The notes under the pieces: model-generated
What the model was told of the DNA's origin: nothing
Databases searched by the model: none
The model's input: the letters and a program-made list of their open reading frames with translations, nothing else
Shown: piece after piece, positions 22,493-32,185 of the stretch
Layout of the letters: each line of letters begins with the position of its first letter
How positions within the stretch are numbered: the stretch's first letter is position 1
Assembly (NCBI GenBank): GCA_016929555.1
Contig: JAFGIO010000092.1
Span: 1 to 35,335 of the forward strand
Direction: 5' to 3'
From: Deltaproteobacteria bacterium
GTDB taxonomy: Bacteria > Desulfobacterota > Syntrophia > Syntrophales > JAFGIO01
Length of the DNA stretch: 35,335 nt
Translations under genes and position numbers: made by a program

Positions 22493-23722
22493 TTATCGTA
22501 CCAACTGATTCATCTCAAAGATGGGCAGCAGAATGGAAACAACGATGAAGCCCACCACGAGTCCCATGGTCAGCACCATGACGGGTTCCAGCAGCGACAT
22601 CATGATGAGGATGCTTGCCTCCACTTCCTTTTCGAAGGCATCGGCAATGCGGAAGAGCATCGTCTCAATGGTTCCGCTCTGCTCTCCGACGGATATCAAT
22701 TCAATGGCCATGGGAGGGAAAAGACCGTTTTCAGCCAGGGTTGCAGCGAGCCCCTGGCCTTCCTCCACGGCTTTGCCGGCGCTTTGGAGCTCATCGGCGA
22801 TGAGCCTGTTGTTCATGATGTTCCGGACGATCTCCAGGGCCCCCAAGAGAGGCACGCCGCTTTGCAGAAGCGTCCCCAAGGTGCGGCTGAACCTGGCGAC
22901 GGCCACCTTCTGGCTCACAGGCCCGAAGAGAGGTGCCTTGAGTTTCATGCCGTCAAAGATATACCGCCCCCGGTCGGTTTTCGTTACGGCGTAGCGCAGA
23001 CCGAAGATCAGACCGAACAGCAGCAGAAGGCAAACCCACCAAAAAGTCTTGAGAAACCCGCTCACGGCGATCAGAAAGATCGTAATGCCGGGCAGGTTCT
23101 GATGCATCTCGCCGAAGATCCGGGTAATGTTCGGAACGACGAAGGCTACCAGAAAAAAAAGTACGACGCTTCCGACGAGAAACATCAGCAAGGGATAGGC
23201 CAGGGCGGCACGGATTTTCATCCTCAAGGCCTGCTGGTTTTCGAAGAAGTCGGCCAGCCTCTCCAGGATGAGATCCAGGGTGCCCGAGGCCTCGCCCGCA
23301 CGAACCATGTTGATGTAAAAGGGAGAAAATATTCCCGGGAAATGGGAAAGGCTTCCCGTGAGGCTGTTGCCTTCATTCACCTCTTCCCTGATCTGAACCA
23401 GCGTTTTTTTGAGCTGGGGATGTCGTGTCTGCGCCACCAGCACCGTCAGGGAAGGGACAAGGGGCAAACCGGCCTTCAGCAGGGTAGCCAACTGCCGGGT
23501 CATGACGGCGATTTCTGCCAAGCCCGCCTTTTTGAAGAGACTTCCGCCGGTTGCTTCGGCCCCCGTCTGGGCCTTCCCTTCCGAGAAGGTCTCCTTCATG
23601 TCCGTTGGAAAGACACTCATTTCCCGAAGTTTCTGTCTCGCCGCAGCCATGCCCGCTGCATCGACAATCCCCTTTTGCCTGCGGCCCTTCTCATCCAGGG
23701 CTGTGTATTCATAAACCGGCAT
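22493..23722 (-). CDS. gspF: Type II secretion platform protein GspF
   Basis: A 409-residue polytopic inner-membrane protein of the assembly platform. It starts MPVYEYTALDEKGRRQKG, the standard GspF start. It has two repeated cytoplasmic T2SSF domains (TRQLATLLKAGLPLVPSL near residue 75; FSRTLGTLLQSGVPLLGALE near 275) and three membrane segments (~165-195, ~220-245, ~375-400). The frame is open upstream to 24118, but the ATG at 23722 follows GAGAGGG at 8 bases and matches the family start. It is the first gene of the operon; the usual order E-F is broken because gspE is at the far end. Confidence 0.96.
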   Translation of the reverse strand: MPVYEYTALDEKGRRQKGIVDAAGMAAARQKLREMSVFPTDMKETFSEGKAQTGAEATGGSLFKKAGLAEIAVMTRQLATLLKAGLPLVPSLTVLVAQTRHPQLKKTLVQIREEVNEGNSLTGSLSHFPGIFSPFYINMVRAGEASGTLDLILERLADFFENQQALRMKIRAALAYPLLMFLVGSVVLFFLVAFVVPNITRIFGEMHQNLPGITIFLIAVSGFLKTFWWVCLLLLFGLIFGLRYAVTKTDRGRYIFDGMKLKAPLFGPVSQKVAVARFSRTLGTLLQSGVPLLGALEIVRNIMNNRLIADELQSAGKAVEEGQGLAATLAENGLFPPMAIELISVGEQSGTIETMLFRIADAFEKEVEASILIMMSLLEPVMVLTMGLVVGFIVVSILLPIFEMNQLVR

Positions 23723-24102
23723 GGATTGAACCCTCTCCCTTTCTTCGAATTTTCCTACCATCTCCACGCCGAAAAATCCAGCCGCAAAGTGTCGCTGCCC
23801 GGCCGGCACAACCGTCCCGCCGATCGCCGTATCCAGTGACGCTCTTCGACCGGCATTATCCCTGAAGGACTTTATCTTTGATACAAAACCATGAATTTTC
23901 TTGCCATCGATAAAATAATCCTGTATTGATTTTAGCGCATTACAACATTTCATCCCCGGGATGTCAAAACAGCGCTTCAGGGAACCGCCTTGGGCAGGAA
24001 CATGATCACCCGCCTCTAAAATAAGGTTCAGGAAGGTTTGCCATGGTTCTTCAGGATCATTCGCAGGCTTGAGAACAGAACACAAGGGCAGGAACGGGAG
24101 GC
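23723..24102. other. Intergenic region between gspF and the RelA/SpoT-like gene
   Basis: This 380-bp spacer separates divergent genes. It carries the gsp operon promoter (23939-23967, - strand), giving gspF a ~210-nt leader. I searched that leader by eye for a cyclic-di-GMP (GEMM) fold or other riboswitch core and saw none. An open frame continues through it in the gspF phase but has no start with better support. No promoter is clear for the + strand gene at 24103. Confidence 0.5.
23939..23967 (-). promoter_or_regulatory. Sigma-70-type promoter of the T2SS operon
   Basis: Read on the - strand: TTGACA (23967-23962), a 17-bp spacer and TGTAAT (23944-23939). Predicted transcription start is near 23932, about 210 nt before the gspF start codon. 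Confidence 0.65.
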
Positions 24103-25290
24103 ATGTATCTAACTTCATTCATACATCGGGATCCTTTGTTTGAAATTGCCGAGCGCTGGTTCCGCAGTTGTCCCGAGCCGGGCGATTGCCGGTCCCTCAC
24201 CGAGATTCTGATCTGTGACGGCTTCGTCATCAACGAAACCTTGGAAGTGCTGACGAAATGTCTGCTCGACATGACGCACCGTTGTCCCTATCATCGGAAG
24301 GAAATCCGGACCAAGGGGGAATTGCGCGACCTTATCTGTAACGGACATCGCGATGAACAGCCGCGGGTGGCTGAACTCGTGAAACGCTACAGGGAAAATC
24401 CCGACTACTATTACCGGGAAGCCCCCATCAATGCCGTGGTTTATCTCGACGACCAGGATCAATTGCTGGGATCGTTCAGAATAAAACGTCCCAAGAGAAT
24501 CGCAGAGAAGGCAAACCGAAAAATCGCGGAGTGGATCTTCGAAAAAGTCATTGAACGGGCACGGGAGATGGCCCGCCAGAGGGCGCAGCTCTCCGGCGTT
24601 CCTTTGAACGGTTTCGTGACCCCTGCCGATGAAATGATCCGGGAATTCATCCGCGCGGAAGAGGACATCGCCGCAGGATTCAGAGACGGCGACATCCGGT
24701 TCGACAAAGAAGCTTCGGCAATCCATGACGTGGCCGCGATAAAGATCGTGGCATCCTCCGACGACCTGTGGCGTCTTGAGAACATATTGCAAAAGACCGA
24801 TGACATCCGGGTTGTCGAAAAGCAGGAATTCAGCGGCAACTACCGGGCCATAAGCCTGATCATCGAGGTTTTCTGGAACGGCGAATATATATGCCGGCAA
24901 TACCGCGAAAACAGGGTCTGGAAAAGGTATCTCGATCGCGGCATTCCCGAAGCCGATCTCGAAAGGGGTTTGGAGGTCTCCTTTGCCGATGCCGAGCCGA
25001 AGATGAATGTCGAGCTGATCCTTTCGACCTATCCCGACATGGTGGAATCCGAACTCGGCAGAAGCATCCATGAAGAGAGGATCATCGCCCAGAGAGATAA
25101 CAGGAAATACAAGGGCTATATTCCCATGAACATCGAGTTCCTTGTCGAATCCCTTTTCGCCGTCGGATTCAGCCCCAGGATCGATGTCGACCAGGTGCCG
25201 ATCAAATTGTGGGGAAGGTACCTGCCCGAAACGCTGAGCTCTTATATCCGACGACTGCACAACCTGCCCGAATACGATCTCATCCAGTAA
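24103..25290 (+). CDS. Divergent RelA/SpoT-like nucleotidyltransferase domain protein
   Basis: A 395-residue soluble protein. Residues ~195-330 can be laid on the RelA/SpoT synthetase fold. IHDVAAIKIVASSDDLWRLE fits the strand-helix with the metal-binding Asp (D209). FSGNYRAISLIIEVF fits the GYQSLH region with the base-stacking Tyr (Y247). NVELILSTYPDMVESELGRS fits the EIQIRT-type motif with its Glu (E304), followed by a RSIHEERI helix. The basic RPK...YSIxxK segment of true synthetases is not evident and no HD hydrolase domain is present, so (p)ppGpp synthesis is unproven. The N-terminal ~190 residues are unrecognised. GGGAGG lies one base before the ATG, with AGGA further up. A long frame exists on the other strand, but it has no motifs or ribosome site. 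Confidence 0.6.
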   Translation: MYLTSFIHRDPLFEIAERWFRSCPEPGDCRSLTEILICDGFVINETLEVLTKCLLDMTHRCPYHRKEIRTKGELRDLICNGHRDEQPRVAELVKRYRENPDYYYREAPINAVVYLDDQDQLLGSFRIKRPKRIAEKANRKIAEWIFEKVIERAREMARQRAQLSGVPLNGFVTPADEMIREFIRAEEDIAAGFRDGDIRFDKEASAIHDVAAIKIVASSDDLWRLENILQKTDDIRVVEKQEFSGNYRAISLIIEVFWNGEYICRQYRENRVWKRYLDRGIPEADLERGLEVSFADAEPKMNVELILSTYPDMVESELGRSIHEERIIAQRDNRKYKGYIPMNIEFLVESLFAVGFSPRIDVDQVPIKLWGRYLPETLSSYIRRLHNLPEYDLIQ

Positions 25291-25305
25291 TCGGCAACCA
25301 TCATC

Positions 25306-25353
25306 AACCGGACAGATTGTGCGCTGCAAAACCGGACATATCATGCGCTACTA
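25306..25353. repeat. Two 24-bp imperfect tandem repeats
   Basis: AACCGGACAGATTGTGCGCT (25306-25325) is repeated as AACCGGACATATCATGCGCT (25330-25349) with a 24-bp period; about 19 of 24 positions match. Repeated CCGGACA blocks occur at the ends of some IS21-type elements, but there is no transposase here. They could be an element end remnant or a regulator site just upstream of the promoter at 25373. Confidence 0.5.
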
Positions 25354-25372
25354 ACACACATGCCTTTCGCCA

Positions 25373-25401
25373 TTGACAGACAAAGACCTCCTTCGTATAT
25401 T
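25373..25401 (+). promoter_or_regulatory. Strong sigma-70-type promoter
   Basis: TTGACA at 25373-25378, a 17-bp spacer and TATATT at 25396-25401. It would transcribe the small ORF at 25465 and probably the AmmeMemoRadiSam cluster beginning at 25660. Confidence 0.72.
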
Positions 25402-25464
25402 ACCTTTGAAAACTGTTGCGAACAGGACCATTATGAAAGAAGCAGCAGAATACCGACGGAAACA

Positions 25465-25614
25465 ATGAAGGTCCGCAACCTGATGAGGCCGATTGTTGAA
25501 TTTTCGAGCAGAACCTCCCCTGCGACATTTTCGGAAATTGTCCTGGTGCCGCTCTTTTCCGATGTTTACAGAAACATTGCCCAGACCTTCTACGAGCGCT
25601 GTTTGCCGGAATAA
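25465..25614 (+). pseudogene. Small ORF resembling a truncated CBS domain
   Basis: A 49-residue frame starting MKVRNLMRPIVEFSSRTSPA. This resembles the first strand and loop of a CBS domain (MKVRDLMxP... then xATxxEAV), here with SPATFSEIVLV. After about residue 30 the likeness ends and the frame stops, so only a fraction of one CBS motif is present; functional proteins need a pair. GACGGA lies before the ATG, and it starts ~57 nt after the predicted transcription start. It is probably a decayed gene or a short leader ORF. The CBS likeness is by eye only. Confidence 0.35.
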
Positions 25615-25659
25615 GACCCTTTTCGGAGGGTATTACTGACAGGGAACCAAAAGGCAGAG

Positions 25660-26898
25660 ATGTTCGATCGACGCGAAATTTTGGCCGGGATGATCCGACT
25701 GGCAACCCTGCTTGGAGGCGCCGGTTTGATCTTGACGGATCCCTTCCTGTGGGAGATCCTCGGAAAATTCGAAGGGGGGTGTGTTTCGGCCCAGGATCGG
25801 CTGGAAGCCTTCATCCGCCAGGCCCCCCGGGCCAGATATTGGACCTCGACCGCCCTCGCAGGCAACGATTGCCTCCAATGCCACAGCGCCACGGAAACGC
25901 TCGGCGGCCGTTATGTCCATCAAAGCGGTCTCGTCAAATGCCTGCTCTGCCCGCAGGGCTGCATGCTGCAGCCCGGCGAGCGGGGTCGCTGCAGCGCCCG
26001 GATGAACGTGGACGGTGAAATGCGGAGCCTCGTCTACGGACGTCCCGTGGCCATCCACATCGATCCCATTGAAAAAAAACCCCTGTATCACTACCTGCCC
26101 GGCTCCTCAGCCTTCTCCCTGGCGACCGCTGGATGTCCCCTCCGGTGCAAGTTCTGTCAGAACTGGGAAATATCACAGTCACGGCCTGAAGACCACGATT
26201 CCCCCTATGTGGAGCCCGAAAAGATCGTGCAGACCTCCCGGCAGCGGCGGGCGCCCGTGATCGCCTTCACCTACAACGAGCCGACGGTCTTTATGGAATA
26301 CCTGACCGACATCGCCCGCAGTGCCCGGAAAGAGGGACTTCGGTCGGTCCTGATCAGCTGCGGTTTTATGAACGAGGCGCCGCTGGCCGAGATGTGCGGG
26401 GTTCTGGAGGCCATCAAGATCGACCTGAAGGGATACAGCGAGTCCTTTTACCGGAACGTCTGCGGCGCTGAACTTCGCCCCGTGCTCCGGAGTATACGCC
26501 AGGTCTCCCGCAGCGGCGTTCATCTGGAAATCGTCAACCTGGTGGTTCCGACCCTGAACGATTCGGACGGGATGCTCCGGGGACTGGCCGACTGGATCCT
26601 GGGAGAGATCGGTCCCGATGTGCCCGTCCATTTCACCCGTTTTCATCCCGACTACCGCCTCCTCAACCTCCCTCCGACACCCGTGGCGACCCTGGAGCGC
26701 GCCCGGGAAATCGCCATGGAAAAGGGCATTCACTATGCCTATGTCGGCAATGTGCCCGGTCATCGGGGGAACCACACCTATTGTCCGAACTGCAAAAAAA
26801 TGATAATAGAAAGACACGGTTTCTTCATCACGAATCTGAAGCTGAAGGACGGCCGCTGTTCCTACTGCGGCCGGAAGATCGCCGGCGTTTGGACCTGA
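25660..26898 (+). CDS. amrS: AmmeMemoRadiSam system radical SAM enzyme, with Tat-like N-terminus and CxxCH
   Basis: A 412-residue radical SAM protein of the AmrS type. From residue ~90 the family pattern is complete. It includes VKC94LLC97PQGC101, GRCSAR, the radical SAM cluster C159PLRC163KFC166QNW, FTYNEPTVF, IKIDLKGYSESFYR and a rubredoxin-like C-terminal CPNC...CSYC pair ending AGVW. The first ~80 residues are extra: a DRREILAG start followed by a hydrophobic stretch (MIRLATLLGGAGLIL) resembles a Tat signal, and C71LQC74H75 is a c-type haem motif. Radical SAM enzymes normally work in the cytoplasm with SAM and reduced ferredoxin, so export would be odd. The helix may instead be a membrane anchor. 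The natural substrate of AmrS is unknown. It is the first gene of a three-gene cluster; AAGGCAG precedes the ATG. Confidence 0.88.
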   Translation: MFDRREILAGMIRLATLLGGAGLILTDPFLWEILGKFEGGCVSAQDRLEAFIRQAPRARYWTSTALAGNDCLQCHSATETLGGRYVHQSGLVKCLLCPQGCMLQPGERGRCSARMNVDGEMRSLVYGRPVAIHIDPIEKKPLYHYLPGSSAFSLATAGCPLRCKFCQNWEISQSRPEDHDSPYVEPEKIVQTSRQRRAPVIAFTYNEPTVFMEYLTDIARSARKEGLRSVLISCGFMNEAPLAEMCGVLEAIKIDLKGYSESFYRNVCGAELRPVLRSIRQVSRSGVHLEIVNLVVPTLNDSDGMLRGLADWILGEIGPDVPVHFTRFHPDYRLLNLPPTPVATLERAREIAMEKGIHYAYVGNVPGHRGNHTYCPNCKKMIIERHGFFITNLKLKDGRCSYCGRKIAGVWT

Positions 26899-26930
26899 GG
26901 GGGTGATGCCTCCGCAAGGGAGCGAATACC

Positions 26931-28475
26931 ATGAGGAAATTTCCTCTTGTCGTTTTTGTAATCATCCTTTTGACGACAGGAATAGGTGTTGCCATGGCAC
27001 TTCAGGGGAAAAAACAGATGGATCATCACGTTAGAGAGCCAGCGGTTGCCGGCCAGTTTTATCCCGCATCGGAGGCGATGCTTCAGAGGGCCGTCGAGAA
27101 ATTCCTCCAGGATGCAACACCCGTCAGGGTCAAAAGGCCCATCGCGATCATCGTGCCCCACGCCGGCTATATCTATTCCGGCCAGATCGCGGCCGATGGT
27201 TTCAAACAGGCTGCCGGGGGCGATTACGACATCGTCGTCATCCTGGGGACCAACCATACCAGCGCCGAATTCCGGAAGGTTTCCCTCTATAACGGCAGCG
27301 GTTTCCGCACCCCTCTCGGGGTCGCCCCGATCGATCTGGAGATCGCGCAGGCCCTGGCGGCAGCGAACCCCGAATGCACGATGGAAAGATCCGTCCACGA
27401 GCGCGAGCACTCCATCGAGGTTCAGGTGCCCTTTGTGCAGATCCTCTTCCCGAAGGCGAAGATCCTGCCCGCAATCGTCGGCACGCCGGAGGTGGGCCTT
27501 TGCAACCGCTTCGGCCAGACCCTGGCCTCGGTGCTCAGGGATCGCAAGGCCCTGATCGTGGCCAGTTCGGACCTTTCCCATTATCCCTCGGCGGAAGACG
27601 CCAGGGCAGTCGATCATGAAACGCTGCGGGCGGTTGCGACGATGGATCCGGCCACCCTTCGGGCTGCCATCGCCGCACATCGAGAGAGACGCATCCCAGG
27701 GCTGCACACCAGCGCCTGCGGTGAGGCTCCCATGCTTGCAGCCATGGCGGCAGCGAAGGCCCTGGGCGCCACCAGGGGGGTTGTCATCAGCTATGCCCAC
27801 TCCGGCGATGTGTCCATCGGCGACCGCTCCCGGGTCGTGGGCTACGGAGCCGTGGCGCTGTCCGCCGAGGAAGGCCGTGCAGACACCAGCGCCCTGGATG
27901 AGGGAAACACCGCCCCGCAGGAACCGTCTCTGACGCCGGCGGATAAAAAGGCCATGCTTCGCTTCGTCCGGGAAACGATCTCCCGCTACCTTTCGACCCA
28001 GACCGTACCCCTGGCCAGGGGATTCTCGCCGGACCTTCAATACCCCCAGGGCATCTTCGTCACGCTCAAGAAGAAAGAACAACTTCGGGGCTGCATCGGC
28101 CGGATCGTTCCCGATGCCCCTTTGTCGAAATTGATGGGCACCATCGCCCTTCAGTCAGCCTTCGAGGATCCGCGGTTCAAACCGGTCACTGCGAAAGAAC
28201 TCGATGATCTTGAGATCGAAATATCCGTGCTCACCCCGATGAAGCAGGTAAAGGGTCCCGGAGACATCGTCGTCGGGAGGGACGGCGTCGTCCTCAGAAA
28301 GGGGGGCCGTTCCGCCGTCTTTCTGCCCCAGGTGGCGCCCGAACAGGGTTGGGGAAGGGACGAAATGCTCGACCACCTCAGCATGAAGGCCGGCCTGTCG
28401 AGGGGAAGCTGGAGGGAGGGAGCCGAATTTTTCACCTTTCAGGCCATCGTCTTCAGCGAAAAGGAGTTTCAATAA
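26931..28475 (+). CDS. Exported Memo-AMMECR1 fusion (AmmeMemoRadiSam proteins B and A)
   Basis: A 514-residue fusion. Residues 1-24 form a signal peptide or anchor (MRKFPLVVFVIILLTTGIGV). Residues ~33-310 are a Memo domain. It keeps the residues matching the metal-binding His/His/Cys of human MEMO1: H77 in PHAGYIYSG, H109 in GTNHT and C263 in HTSACGEAP, with REHSIEVQVPF and SSDLSHY also intact. Residues ~335-505 are an AMMECR1 domain with the diagnostic LRGC388IGRI. Memo resembles class III extradiol dioxygenases; AMMECR1 has no assigned reaction. In other genomes the two domains occur with AmrS, fused or separate. The export signal on this fusion agrees with that on the neighbouring AmrS and places the system at the envelope. 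GGGAG lies 8 bases before the ATG; it starts 32 bp after amrS. Confidence 0.93.
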   Translation: MRKFPLVVFVIILLTTGIGVAMALQGKKQMDHHVREPAVAGQFYPASEAMLQRAVEKFLQDATPVRVKRPIAIIVPHAGYIYSGQIAADGFKQAAGGDYDIVVILGTNHTSAEFRKVSLYNGSGFRTPLGVAPIDLEIAQALAAANPECTMERSVHEREHSIEVQVPFVQILFPKAKILPAIVGTPEVGLCNRFGQTLASVLRDRKALIVASSDLSHYPSAEDARAVDHETLRAVATMDPATLRAAIAAHRERRIPGLHTSACGEAPMLAAMAAAKALGATRGVVISYAHSGDVSIGDRSRVVGYGAVALSAEEGRADTSALDEGNTAPQEPSLTPADKKAMLRFVRETISRYLSTQTVPLARGFSPDLQYPQGIFVTLKKKEQLRGCIGRIVPDAPLSKLMGTIALQSAFEDPRFKPVTAKELDDLEIEISVLTPMKQVKGPGDIVVGRDGVVLRKGGRSAVFLPQVAPEQGWGRDEMLDHLSMKAGLSRGSWREGAEFFTFQAIVFSEKEFQ

Positions 28476-28573
28476 ACGGATTATCGCCACGAGCCATGAA
28501 ATCCCTCCGGAACGCCTTTCCATGGATCGGGGGGATTTTCCTATGAGGAGGTACAACCTCTGCCTTCAATCCG

Positions 28574-30739
28574 ATGAGTCCCCTCTACCTGTTCGCCGTC
28601 GGCCTGCTGTCCATTCTGGGGCAGGTAGCCCTGTTGCGGGAGCTGAATGTCGCCCTTTACGGCGTCGAACTGTTCTATCTGCTCGCCCTGGGCACCTGGC
28701 TCCTCTGGGGCGCCCTGGGAGCCCTGGTGGGGGCTATGCGGCGGGATGTGTCGCCCGAACTGGTCATCCTGCTGTTTCTTCTTTTGGGCCTGATCCTTCC
28801 GCTGGACCTGGCTTTCATCCGCTACAGCCGCCTCCTGCTGACCGGAGTCCCCGGCGCTTACCTCTCCTTTCCCCGTCAGTTTTTCCTCATACTGATCGCA
28901 CTTGCCCCCCCAGGAATCGTCCTGGGCGTCCTCTTTCAGTGGTCTGCCAGGCATTACGTGGGCGGCGAGAAATCTCTGGCGAGAGCCTACGCGATAGAGA
29001 GCCTGGGCGGTCTTGCGGGCGGCATCCTGTCCACCCTTTCTCTGACCTGGGGCATTCAGAATGGGGCCCTCCTGCTTGCCTCTGCCATTACGACCCCCTT
29101 CTTGGCACTGGCCCTTCCGTCAGGCGGTAAGTCGATCTTTTGTAAGATGTCCGCGCTTGCCCTCTTCTGCCTCCTCTCCCTGATGCTCTGGCAGCACTCC
29201 TCCATCCACCGGGTCATGACCCGGTGGAATTACCCCGCTATGCTGGAAAGTCTGGACACCCCCTACGGCCGGGTCACGATCACCCGCTGGGCCGATCAGG
29301 TATCGGTCTTCGAAAACGGCAGCCTCGCTTTCGAGACCGGCGGCACCGACGCTGAATCCATCTGCCATCTTGCCGCCCTTCAACACCCGCGGCCCAAGGA
29401 TGTGCTGATCCTCGGAGGCGGCATCGAGGGCATCGTTCGCGAGATGTTGAAACACGACCCCCGGCGCATCGACTACGTAGAGATCAACTATGCCATGTTC
29501 GACCTTGTCACCAAGCACATGCCCAGGGATACAAGGGAATCCCTGAGAGACACAAGGGTGCATATTTTCTTCGCCGATCCGAGAACCTTCATCCTGCGCG
29601 ACCGCTCCTACGACCTGATCCTGATCGGCATGCCCGAGCCGTCCTCGGGCCAGGCCAATCGTTTCTACACCAGCGATTTCTTCATCCAATGCGCTGCGAG
29701 GCTGCATCACGGGGGGGTTTTGGCGCTGCGTCTGCGCTCCGCCGAGAACTACTGGACAGTGCCTCTGGGCCGGCGCATGGCAAGCGTTTACCGGTCCTTG
29801 ACCTCCGTTTTCCCCCACGTGCAATTTCTTCCCGGCGCCGTGAACGTGATCACGGCCTCTTCCGGAGAACTGCCCCGAACAGAGGAGGAACCCATCGCCC
29901 ACCTTCAGCAAAGACAAATCCGGGCGAGATTGATCACGGTTCCCTATATCCGATATCTTTTCACGAACGACCGCTACTTTGAGATCGATCGATTCCTGAA
30001 AGAGGAAAAGGCTCCCCTCAACACCGATGCCGCACCGGTATGCTACCGCTATACCCTCATGATCTGGCTTTCCAAATTCTTCCCCCGGATCAACACCATG
30101 GCCTATGCCCCTGTCCTGAACGGACAACTGCCCGGATCTATGTTCCTATGGTCAGCATGGTTATCCCTTGCGATGCTTTTCCTGTTGTCGAGGCTTAAAC
30201 CCTTCTGCCGCCGGGTTCTGTTCGTCGCCTTCGGCGGCTTCACGGGAATGGTCATCGAATCCGTGCTCCTGCTTCACTATCAAGTCAAGCAGGGGGTTCT
30301 CTATCAGGATCTCGGACTGTTGCTGATGAGTTTCATGCTGGGGCTAGCGCTGGGTGCCGCGGCCGTCGACAGGTTTGCCGGCAGGGGGAGGGAAAATCGA
30401 TCTTCGCTCGTGAAATGGGGTGTGAGTCTCGGGTTTGGCCTGATCCTACTCTGCGGCCTCACCCTCCATGTGGTTTCGGCATGCGGTTTCAAAAGCCTCG
30501 TCCAAACGGCCGGGCTTCTGGCAGCGGCTGGCTTCCTCGTGGCGGGTGTCTTCGCCTACGCAAGTCTCGGGGACACCGAAGACCCCAAAGGGGCGATTGC
30601 GGCCCTCTACGCGGCGGACCTTGCCGGCGGCTGCCTCGGCTCCGTCCTGAGCGGTCTGATGCTGATCCCCCTTTACGGGCTGGATTCAACGGCGGCACTC
30701 ATAACCGGACTTTCCATCCTTTCTATACTCCTCGTATAG
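28574..30739 (+). CDS. Polytopic membrane protein with SpeE-like SAM-binding domain
   Basis: A 721-residue protein. About seven membrane helices (residues 1-215) precede a soluble spermidine-synthase-like Rossmann domain (~225-470), and about six more helices follow (510-721). The SAM/dcSAM loop is GGGIEG (281-286) where SpeE has GGGDGG; the acidic residue after beta-2 is present (DYVEINYAM) and ADPRTFI follows. The DxxDP motif carrying the catalytic Asp of SpeE is replaced by G352MPEP356, so true aminopropyl transfer is doubtful; NRFYTSDFF is retained. Similar membrane SpeE-like proteins are known but not characterised. It follows the Memo-AMMECR1 gene by 98 bp on the same strand. The ATG has no ribosome site right before it. 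GAGGAGG lies 23 bases upstream and can pair with ACCTC just after it. Confidence 0.85.
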   Translation: MSPLYLFAVGLLSILGQVALLRELNVALYGVELFYLLALGTWLLWGALGALVGAMRRDVSPELVILLFLLLGLILPLDLAFIRYSRLLLTGVPGAYLSFPRQFFLILIALAPPGIVLGVLFQWSARHYVGGEKSLARAYAIESLGGLAGGILSTLSLTWGIQNGALLLASAITTPFLALALPSGGKSIFCKMSALALFCLLSLMLWQHSSIHRVMTRWNYPAMLESLDTPYGRVTITRWADQVSVFENGSLAFETGGTDAESICHLAALQHPRPKDVLILGGGIEGIVREMLKHDPRRIDYVEINYAMFDLVTKHMPRDTRESLRDTRVHIFFADPRTFILRDRSYDLILIGMPEPSSGQANRFYTSDFFIQCAARLHHGGVLALRLRSAENYWTVPLGRRMASVYRSLTSVFPHVQFLPGAVNVITASSGELPRTEEEPIAHLQQRQIRARLITVPYIRYLFTNDRYFEIDRFLKEEKAPLNTDAAPVCYRYTLMIWLSKFFPRINTMAYAPVLNGQLPGSMFLWSAWLSLAMLFLLSRLKPFCRRVLFVAFGGFTGMVIESVLLLHYQVKQGVLYQDLGLLLMSFMLGLALGAAAVDRFAGRGRENRSSLVKWGVSLGFGLILLCGLTLHVVSACGFKSLVQTAGLLAAAGFLVAGVFAYASLGDTEDPKGAIAALYAADLAGGCLGSVLSGLMLIPLYGLDSTAALITGLSILSILLV

Positions 30740-30753
30740 CTCGAGTGCCGCCG
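30690..30753. repeat. Nested inverted repeats over the end of the SpeE-like gene
   Basis: CGGCGGCACTC (30690-30700) and GAGTGCCGCCG (30743-30753) are a perfect 11-bp inverted repeat. Inside it CTATAC (30723-30728) pairs with GTATAG (30734-30739), which includes the TAG stop. There is no T-run after it, so it is not a classical terminator, but it may stabilise the mRNA end between convergent genes. Confidence 0.45.
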
Positions 30754-30850
30754 GATAGATGTTTGCAGCAAAACGATACCGACCAGGCATCAAGGACTGC
30801 CCGTCCCTATTCCCGCCAGGCAGAAAAAGAACGGCGCCGATGCCGTATCC

Positions 30851-31675
30851 TCACTCCATGCATTTCGTCTCGGCCCTCATCCGGTCACGGACCTTCGGCG
30901 GCAGGGATTTATAGACACCCTTCTGGGATTTGCCCAGCCCGACGCTCCTTTTGAGATCGACGAGGAGTTCCGCCATCTTGACGGCTGCCTGGGTCACGTC
31001 GATGACGGGTACGCCCGTACCCGGCACCTCTTTGTAGCCCAGCAGAGATGTCGCGGGGCTCAGGGCAGCGCAGGCCGGGATGATCACTTCGGCGCCGTCG
31101 GCGATGCAGGCCCGGCAAAGCTCATCGAACTGGGGGTTGATCGCCTGGGGATCGAAGATCATGCCGCCGAGCGCCATGAAGGGATCGCTGCCCAACTGAT
31201 AGACCCGCACCGGCCTCGTGGCACGCCATTCCAGCCCGTAGCTGTTTATATTGCGCTCGCAGAGGGCAACGAAGTCCTCCATGACCGTGATCACGCCGAA
31301 CTTGAAACCCAGGGTGCAGGCCAGCAGCATGGCCGCCTCGGTGGGACCCACGACGGGAATATCGACGGCCTGACGGGCCTGCTGAAGCCCCGGATCGTTT
31401 CCGCAGCCGATGATGGCGGCATCGTAACCCTGCTTTTCCGCCTCGATGATGCCGTCGATTAGCCAGACGTTGTTGAGCATCTCCAGGTAAGAAGCCTGAA
31501 CGATGTAGGATGAATGCTTGATGCGATGGATCTCGATCATCGTATCCTCGCGGGCGACCTTCCTGAGGTTGCCCATGATCTTATCGTCACCGGCCTTCTG
31601 GATCTCCTTGTCGCTGCCTACCAGCGACTGTCCCGCCTCCGGCAGGATATCCTGCCACCAGATTTTCATGGACAT
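30851..31675 (-). CDS. Hydantoin / Asp-Glu racemase superfamily protein
   Basis: A 274-residue cytoplasmic protein of the Asp/Glu/hydantoin racemase superfamily, cofactor-independent racemases using two Cys as acid and base. Both are present: C91 in IIGCGNDPG and C202 in IIPACAALSP. The pseudo-symmetric halves are visible (DIPVVGPTEAAMLLA and TGVPVIDVTQAAVKMAEL). The frame is open upstream to 31852, but the ATG at 31675 has GGGAGG five bases before it. It is 17 bp after the AhpD-like gene, so the two form an operon. Substrate is unknown; some relatives act as maleate isomerases or hydantoin racemases. Confidence 0.87.
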   Translation of the reverse strand: MSMKIWWQDILPEAGQSLVGSDKEIQKAGDDKIMGNLRKVAREDTMIEIHRIKHSSYIVQASYLEMLNNVWLIDGIIEAEKQGYDAAIIGCGNDPGLQQARQAVDIPVVGPTEAAMLLACTLGFKFGVITVMEDFVALCERNINSYGLEWRATRPVRVYQLGSDPFMALGGMIFDPQAINPQFDELCRACIADGAEVIIPACAALSPATSLLGYKEVPGTGVPVIDVTQAAVKMAELLVDLKRSVGLGKSQKGVYKSLPPKVRDRMRAETKCME

Positions 31676-31692
31676 GACGCACCTCCCTCGTT

Positions 31693-32025
31693 TCAGCCCT
31701 TTTTCCCCATGGCATCCATGGCGATGCAGGAGTGGGCCACGGCTGCACCGGCGCTCATCGCAATCCCCACAAAAACCGCTTCGGCGATCTCCTCGTCCGT
31801 GGCCCCGGCCTTTTTGGCCCTCCTGACATGGCCGTCGATACAATAAGGGCAACGAGTGACATGGGCCGCGCCGATAGCGATGAGTTCCTTGACCTTCGTC
31901 GGCAGAGCGCCCTCGGCGAAGACCTTCTGGTCGAAGATGAAAAAGGCGTTAAAGAGATCGCCCTTGAGTTCCACGAGTTTCGCAATGTTTTGCAAGCCGT
32001 CCTTTGCATAGTAATGATCGCCCAT
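31693..32025 (-). CDS. Carboxymuconolactone decarboxylase / AhpD-like family protein
   Basis: A 110-residue all-helical protein with the AhpD-type motif C59PYC62xxxH66 (the redox Cys pair and His) inside the conserved VKELIAIGAAHVTRCPYCID region. Family members act as peroxidase partners or as small decarboxylase-like enzymes; a Cys pair points to thiol redox or peroxide chemistry. The ATG at 32025 follows GGGGGAAGA and is the first gene of the pair with the racemase. The frame upstream to 32139 has no better start. No obvious biochemical link to racemase activity. Confidence 0.88.
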   Translation of the reverse strand: MGDHYYAKDGLQNIAKLVELKGDLFNAFFIFDQKVFAEGALPTKVKELIAIGAAHVTRCPYCIDGHVRRAKKAGATDEEIAEAVFVGIAMSAGAAVAHSCIAMDAMGKKG

Positions 32026-32083
32026 GACTCTTCCCCCTTCGCAAACCTCCTGTAGCCGAACATGTGGTAATAAAGCGGATGTA

Positions 32084-32112
32084 TATGTAACAGAAATATT
32101 TTTTGCATACAA
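32084..32112 (-). promoter_or_regulatory. Probable promoter of the AhpD-like/racemase pair
   Basis: On the - strand: TTGTAT (32112-32107), a 17-bp spacer and TACATA (32089-32084), in an A/T-rich stretch about 60 bp before the start codon at 32025. Confidence 0.45.
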
Positions 32113-32185
32113 GATGAATATCCGACCAGCCGGCGTCATCAGATACCCTTGCGGCCGGCCCTTTTCCCAAGGGGCGTTATTTTCG

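Follow-up and report, generated by a model that had tools for sequence, protein, structure and literature searches.

The AmmeMemoRadiSam proteins, comprising component A (TIGR04335), component B (TIGR04336), and a radical S-adenosylmethionine (SAM) enzyme (TIGR04337), co-occur in genomes, and two of them, Memo and AMMECR1, have human relatives. In a 35,335-nucleotide stretch (hereafter the window) from a Deltaproteobacteria bacterium (Syntrophia; Syntrophales; JAFGIO01; GenBank assembly GCA_016929555.1, contig JAFGIO010000092.1, positions 1–35,335 of the forward strand) we saw a variant of this system that may well be exported to the periplasm. It is encoded by three adjacent plus-strand genes whose coordinates we re-checked: AmrS, the radical SAM enzyme (25660–26898, 412 residues), a Memo-AMMECR1 fusion (26931–28475, 514 residues), and a SpeE-like polytopic membrane protein (28574–30739, 721 residues), with gaps of 32 bp and 98 bp between them. 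Like the described system, the cluster has all three families adjacent and above their curated cut-offs, with the metal residues of Memo conserved; it differs in its export signals, the Memo-AMMECR1 fusion, a CxxCH insert in AmrS, the SpeE-like third gene, and an AmrS that belongs to a separate branch of the family. The coordinates and profile scores bear out the initial annotation, made from the sequence alone, which had described a three-gene AmmeMemoRadiSam cluster on one strand with short gaps.

AmrS scored 385 bits against TIGR04337 (cut-off 220), placing it among the AmmeMemoRadiSam radical SAM enzymes. It also belongs to the radical SAM superfamily: it scored 62.5 bits against PF04055, and its predicted fold is of the radical SAM type with a CX3CX2C cluster motif, here CPLRCKFC (C159, C163, and C166; 26134–26157), that is invariant in the homologue alignment. 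The solved fold nearest to the AlphaFold model of AmrS (pLDDT 87.7) was that of pyruvate formate-lyase activating enzyme (PDB 3cb8, template modelling (TM) score of 0.81 on target; also 3c8f), which shares the CX3CX2C motif but lacks the additional N-terminal Cys4 region, the C-terminal CxxC/CxxC region, and the twin-arginine translocation (Tat) signal of AmrS. No glycyl-radical enzyme was recognised in the neighbouring genes that we checked. A short insert in AmrS carries the sequence CLQCH (residues 71–75; 25870–25884), a CxxCH motif found in 49 of the 63 sequences of the clade to which this AmrS belongs; it could be a haem c site or bind another metal instead, and the genome encodes two cytochrome c assembly proteins.

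The Memo domain of the fusion (residues 35–309; 27033–27857) gave a score of 256 bits against TIGR04336 (cut-off 26), and the AMMECR1 domain (residues 341–512; 27951–28466; also TIGR00296) gave 170 bits against TIGR04335 (cut-off 99). The metal-site residues H77, H109, and C263 of Memo are invariant in all 47 aligned homologues and are the equivalents of the iron ligands H49, H81, and C244 of human MEMO1, a protein whose primary molecular function is stated as unknown (PMC11081632). The solved human protein (PDB 7kq8) has a homologous Memo domain but is a free domain of 294–297 residues, whereas in the window Memo forms part of an AMMECR1 fusion that starts with a predicted export signal.

The N-terminus of AmrS, MFDRREILAGMIRLATLLGGAGLIL, reads as a Tat signal (residues 1 to ~47; 25660–25800) in which DRREIL is followed by a hydrophobic stretch rich in glycine and alanine; a twin-arginine (RR) motif ahead of such a weakly hydrophobic stretch is typical of Tat substrates, which take an N-in, C-out orientation. 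Because a loose Tat rule also fired in 50 of 615 unrelated proteins, we placed weight on conservation rather than on the single match: the RR pair reaches at least 90% conservation across 38 sequences (homologues 48–69% identical to the AmrS of the window), usually within SRRxFL. In a tree of 135 AmrS cores built with the signal region left out, Tat and non-Tat sequences were separated by one change (mean of 18 in shuffled data, with 0 of 500 shuffles as low), indicating that exported AmrS forms an old branch. The AmrS of the window falls in a well-supported clade of 63 sequences with records from Syntrophales, Desulfobacterales, Acidobacteria, Calditrichaceae, KSB1, Latescibacterota, Ignavibacteriales, and others. 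Tat-AmrS is also present in the isolate Desulfonema magnum 4be13 (locus L020). A chance RR motif is ruled out by the conservation of the arginines together with the single change on the tree, and mis-called start codons by the occurrence of the same N-terminus in homologues. The fusion begins with MRKFPLVVFVIILLTTGIGVAMA (26931–26999), a predicted Sec signal with an AxA site, and Memo homologues likewise start with hydrophobic signals, many having a lipobox such as LxAC. Export of AmrS through Tat is well supported by these sequence comparisons, and the Tat-like and Sec-type N-termini proposed by the initial annotation held up, with relatives of both proteins retaining their signals. A TatC gene in the same genome, partial at a contig edge, scored 153 bits (cut-off 25.1). 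The genome also encodes a second AmrS of 341 residues, adjoining a MoaA-like radical SAM gene (L305, contig C153, 6009–7031, minus strand), and a second Memo of 276 residues; since neither has a signal, the genome appears to hold both a cytoplasmic and an exported set. A separate case is family f13 (G049, G085, and G011; loci L086, L087, and L093), which has a SpeE-like protein in its genomes and an AmrS that groups with the exported forms in the tree but shows no visible signal; the signal was possibly lost, or the protein is possibly exported by a partner. A Memo with an N-terminal membrane segment lies near AmrS at these loci, and the AmrS of L093 is cut at a contig edge.

The third protein scored 71 bits against the spermine/spermidine synthase domain PF01564 (cut-off 22.9). 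Averaged over 46 sequences of its family, it has seven N-terminal transmembrane helices (residues 3–206 in the window protein; 28580–29191), the SpeE domain (residues 213–519; 29210–30130), and about seven further helices (residues 521–720; 30134–30733); AlphaFold on 37 sequences (pLDDT 89, pTM 0.89) agreed, giving six or seven helices after the SpeE domain and 13–14 in total. Loops predicted to be inside had a lysine plus arginine density of 0.195 compared with 0.051 for those predicted outside, with the inside value being higher in 46 of 46 sequences, and the SpeE domain is accordingly oriented, by prediction, toward the outside. The domain resembles Thermus aminopropyltransferase (PDB 1uir, E-value 2.5e-32) and more generally the spermidine synthase and triamine/agmatine aminopropyltransferase fold (1uir and 3anx; TM score of 0.75 on target), with adenosyl-binding positions in common: GGG (residues 281–283), E303, and D335 are retained in nearly all of the family, and the ligand-binding positions and an NRFYT loop are conserved. 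The window protein departs from those enzymes in its 13–14 helices, in its predicted outward-facing domain, and at the catalytic acidic positions, which are occupied by I284 (GGGE becoming GGGI) and G352 (IIDLTDP becoming IGMPEP). It has neither the acidic residue after GGG nor the Asp of the IIDxxDP loop, and it fell far below the SpeE equivalog cut-off of TIGR00417 (79.7 versus 249.55 bits). As the catalytic acidic positions are replaced, the protein is probably not a polyamine synthase, and together with the missed cut-offs this led us to reject a true spermidine synthase. Membrane SpeE proteins of the NF037959 (fused major facilitator superfamily/spermidine synthase) and PRK03612 types also join helices to a SpeE domain, and the window protein has distant relatives that exceed the NF037959 cut-off (43.5–46 bits), but it misses both models itself (21.5 versus 40, and 103 versus 472, respectively) and places its SpeE domain between two helix bundles. 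The polytopic protein with a SpeE-like domain that had been read from the sequence is thus confirmed by PF01564 and the helices, and the predicted Tat and Sec or lipobox signals, together with the predicted outward SpeE domain, support the earlier proposal that all three proteins are directed to the envelope.

We then saw that the SpeE-like gene is linked to exported AmrS well beyond the window. AmrS, Memo, and SpeE-like genes are adjacent in most of 80 loci from several phyla, and in most loci of the window's AmrS clade they follow the order AmrS, Memo-AMMECR1, SpeE-like gene. In Aminicenantes, the SpeE-like gene follows a Tat-AmrS gene with no Memo and with a DUF362 gene upstream; at loci of this type (L066, L068, L069, L071, L072, L079, L082, and L083) we also saw, upstream and in divergent orientation, a gene for a DUF6599-type protein whose N-terminus has a signal-like stretch. 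Among 148 genomes of the window's phylum, some of them incomplete, we counted 60 full-length SpeE-like genes, set apart from lower matches by a clear drop in score; excluding that of the window, 25 of 59 had AmrS no more than 8 kb away, the order and orientation of the genes varying (AmrS-Memo-SpeE, Memo-SpeE-AmrS, and convergent). Viewed from AmrS (150 loci), 18 of 51 Tat forms had a SpeE-like gene at a distance of at most 8 kb, compared with 4 of 99 non-Tat forms (Fisher p 9e-7).

The same link was found at the level of whole genomes. In a first count, a SpeE-like protein was present in 46 of 47 genomes with Tat-AmrS versus 9 of 61 with only non-Tat AmrS, a few of the Tat labels (e.g., G031 and G072) having come solely from the neighbourhood survey around SpeE-like genes. 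Taking one genome per family (55 families) gave a median p of ~1e-11, and of nine families with both kinds of genome seven were concordant and none opposite. A search for weaker AmrS added a Tat-AmrS to three SpeE-like genomes (G004, G036, and G089) and found two (in G041 and G016) among 80 SpeE-less genomes, 77 of which had AmrS; eleven other SpeE-less genomes were left out of this search, and for a few short or truncated AmrS in SpeE-less genomes frame length was the sole criterion. The final count was 49 of 57 SpeE-like genomes with Tat-AmrS versus 2 of 77 AmrS-bearing genomes without the SpeE-like protein (p 1e-25), with G094 cut at a contig edge; as the genomes are related this p-value is too small, and it is the family-level count that matters. 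A bias of ascertainment, in that weak AmrS were first known mainly in SpeE genomes, is countered by our having applied the same profile to the 80 SpeE-less genomes and checked the N-termini. Inheritance of a single operon is ruled out as the sole source of the link by the varied gene order and by the genome-level association where the genes are not adjacent. The initial annotation had named conserved adjacency of the SpeE-like gene as a check on its proposal; the link extends across phyla, in several gene orders, and to whole genomes, so that on comparative grounds a partnership of exported AmrS with the SpeE-like protein is well supported. Of the observations that the annotation said would refute it, neither relatives generally lacking the N-terminal signals nor a missing link to the SpeE-like gene was what we found.

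The SpeE-like gene also occurs with a second kind of radical SAM protein. In G024 and G062 it shares an operon with the gene for another radical SAM protein, which scored only ~26 bits against TIGR04337 and belongs to a PflA/NrdG-like family; most members of this family that we saw had no signal, while 11 were verified to have Tat signals (loci L310–L312 and L314–L321, in G024, G062, G006, G111, G081, G122, G140, G010, G045, G007, and G026). All 11 are in genomes with a SpeE-like protein, and in six (G111, G081, G010, G045, G007, and G026) the Tat member lies beside a Tat-AmrS. Since this second Tat family was found only in SpeE-like genomes, the SpeE-like protein tracks radical SAM export rather than AmmeMemoRadiSam as such. 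The second exported family, the separate and ancient exported branch of AmrS, and the outward SpeE domain with its catalytic residues lost all go beyond what had been proposed from the window alone.

The reading that we favour, at somewhat better than an even chance, is that the cluster encodes an exported, periplasmic AmmeMemoRadiSam variant whose SpeE-like partner most likely brings SAM or removes the adenosyl product. A radical SAM enzyme outside the cytoplasm requires a folded iron-sulfur cluster, which Tat can carry, as well as electrons and SAM. Going by the sequence and comparative evidence for location and partnership, AmrS would fold and take up its [4Fe-4S] cluster in the cytoplasm and cross by Tat, Memo-AMMECR1 would cross by Sec, and the two would act at the periplasmic side of the inner membrane, next to the SpeE-like protein and its outward SpeE domain; the same evidence marks this protein as a partner shared by exported radical SAM enzymes in general. 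From there we infer that its outward domain would bind a ligand and bring SAM or clear spent adenosyl product rather than synthesise polyamines, a role we assign because the protein is found with both exported families and is kept where Memo is absent; that the CxxCH insert of the window-clade AmrS may hold haem c, through which the cluster would receive electrons from periplasmic cytochromes; and that AmrS, with iron-binding Memo and AMMECR1, would modify or mature some envelope substrate. The broader idea of a general bacterial apparatus, in which at least two families of radical SAM enzymes have Tat-exported members that share a dedicated membrane protein delivering SAM or clearing products, is one we regard as a serious possibility that falls somewhat short of even.

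Several points weigh against a periplasmic system supplied by the SpeE-like protein. We know of no description of a periplasmic SAM pool, and the membrane part had no match to a known transporter, all 50 matches listed in a fold search being to SpeE domains. Over half of the SpeE-like genes do not adjoin AmrS; Tat-AmrS occurs with no detectable SpeE-like protein in G041 (85% complete; C215:3247–4239) and G016 (100% complete; C8:14698–15687); five genomes (G011, G049, G085, G022, and G143) have a SpeE-like protein and no verified exported radical SAM protein; and in one family (f12) the SpeE-like gene is beside a non-Tat AmrS. The CxxCH motif is missing in 14 of the 63 clade members and in the other exported branches of AmrS, so that haem c is neither a requirement for nor a feature common to all exported AmrS.

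If the export of AmmeMemoRadiSam is accepted, the SpeE-like protein could instead act as a membrane-bound transferase in a second step of the pathway, with SAM or a SAM product donating a methyl, aminopropyl, or other group to the envelope substrate. The strong match to 1uir and the conserved ligand-binding positions and NRFYT loop fit such an enzyme, but the catalytic acidic residues are lost, the SpeE cut-off is missed by a wide interval, and a protein that occurs with exported radical SAM enzymes of two different families is more easily seen as providing a general service than as one step in one pathway; we consider a transferase unlikely, at roughly one chance in four. The loss of those same residues, along with the strict partnership, would suit a dead SpeE fold that serves as a scaffold or anchor for docking exported radical SAM enzymes, with SAM arriving otherwise or bound to the enzyme, and Tat does export folded, cofactor-loaded proteins. 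On the other hand, conservation of GGG, E303, and D335 would not be expected of a scaffold, 13–14 helices exceed what an anchor needs, and one bound SAM would permit one turnover, making this explanation improbable in our estimation.

Least probable of all, and to our minds quite doubtful, is that the N-terminal stretches anchor the proteins in the membrane with their catalytic domains still in the cytoplasm, so that an ordinary AmmeMemoRadiSam system is tethered to the inner face. It would have the merit of leaving SAM, flavodoxin, and iron-sulfur chemistry in the cytoplasm, where they are in all bacterial radical SAM enzymes known to us. Against such a tether, an RR motif ahead of a Gly/Ala-rich stretch of weak hydrophobicity is what Tat substrates, oriented N-in, C-out, typically show; the lipoboxes of the Memo homologues imply an extracytoplasmic Memo; all 46 sequences gave an outward prediction for the SpeE domain; and three independent signals would all need to mislead.

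The initial annotation had also argued for joint work of the three genes from a strong promoter upstream. Joint work is favoured by the conserved link to the SpeE-like gene; a strong promoter ahead of the cluster is plausible, the putative promoter-like site TTGACA-17-TATATT (25373–25401, plus strand, 11 of 12 matches, ~260 bp 5' of the cluster) being weak evidence in that a scan of 25200–31000 found 3 sites versus 1.7 expected by chance from shuffles. The annotation's further suggestion, a pathway that modifies a membrane or periplasmic substrate, is still conjectural: we found no conserved substrate gene adjoining the cluster. The next gene 3' of the SpeE-like gene is on the opposite strand, where an Asp/Glu racemase family gene (30851–31852, minus strand) overlaps a carboxymuconolactone-decarboxylase/AhpD-like gene (31693–32139, minus strand) that scored 85 bits against TIGR04169, under the cut-off of 120. 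On the other side of the cluster, the longest reading frame of a GspF-like gene (22493–24118, minus strand) has an N-terminal extension of ~130 residues, and its true start is probably further downstream.

To our knowledge, radical SAM enzymes are described as cytoplasmic (or organellar), since SAM and low-potential electrons are found there. In the open-access literature we found no paper using the phrase "periplasmic radical SAM" and no earlier work on an exported AmrS. The predicted signals and the partnership described here suggest radical SAM chemistry outside the cytoplasm, and if this is true, cells with this old, widespread exported branch and its near-obligatory membrane partner would have to provide SAM and electrons across the membrane. 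The SpeE-like protein would be a defined candidate for the supply of SAM. The exported branch would also provide a handle on the long-unknown reaction of AmmeMemoRadiSam, as its substrate should be in the envelope.

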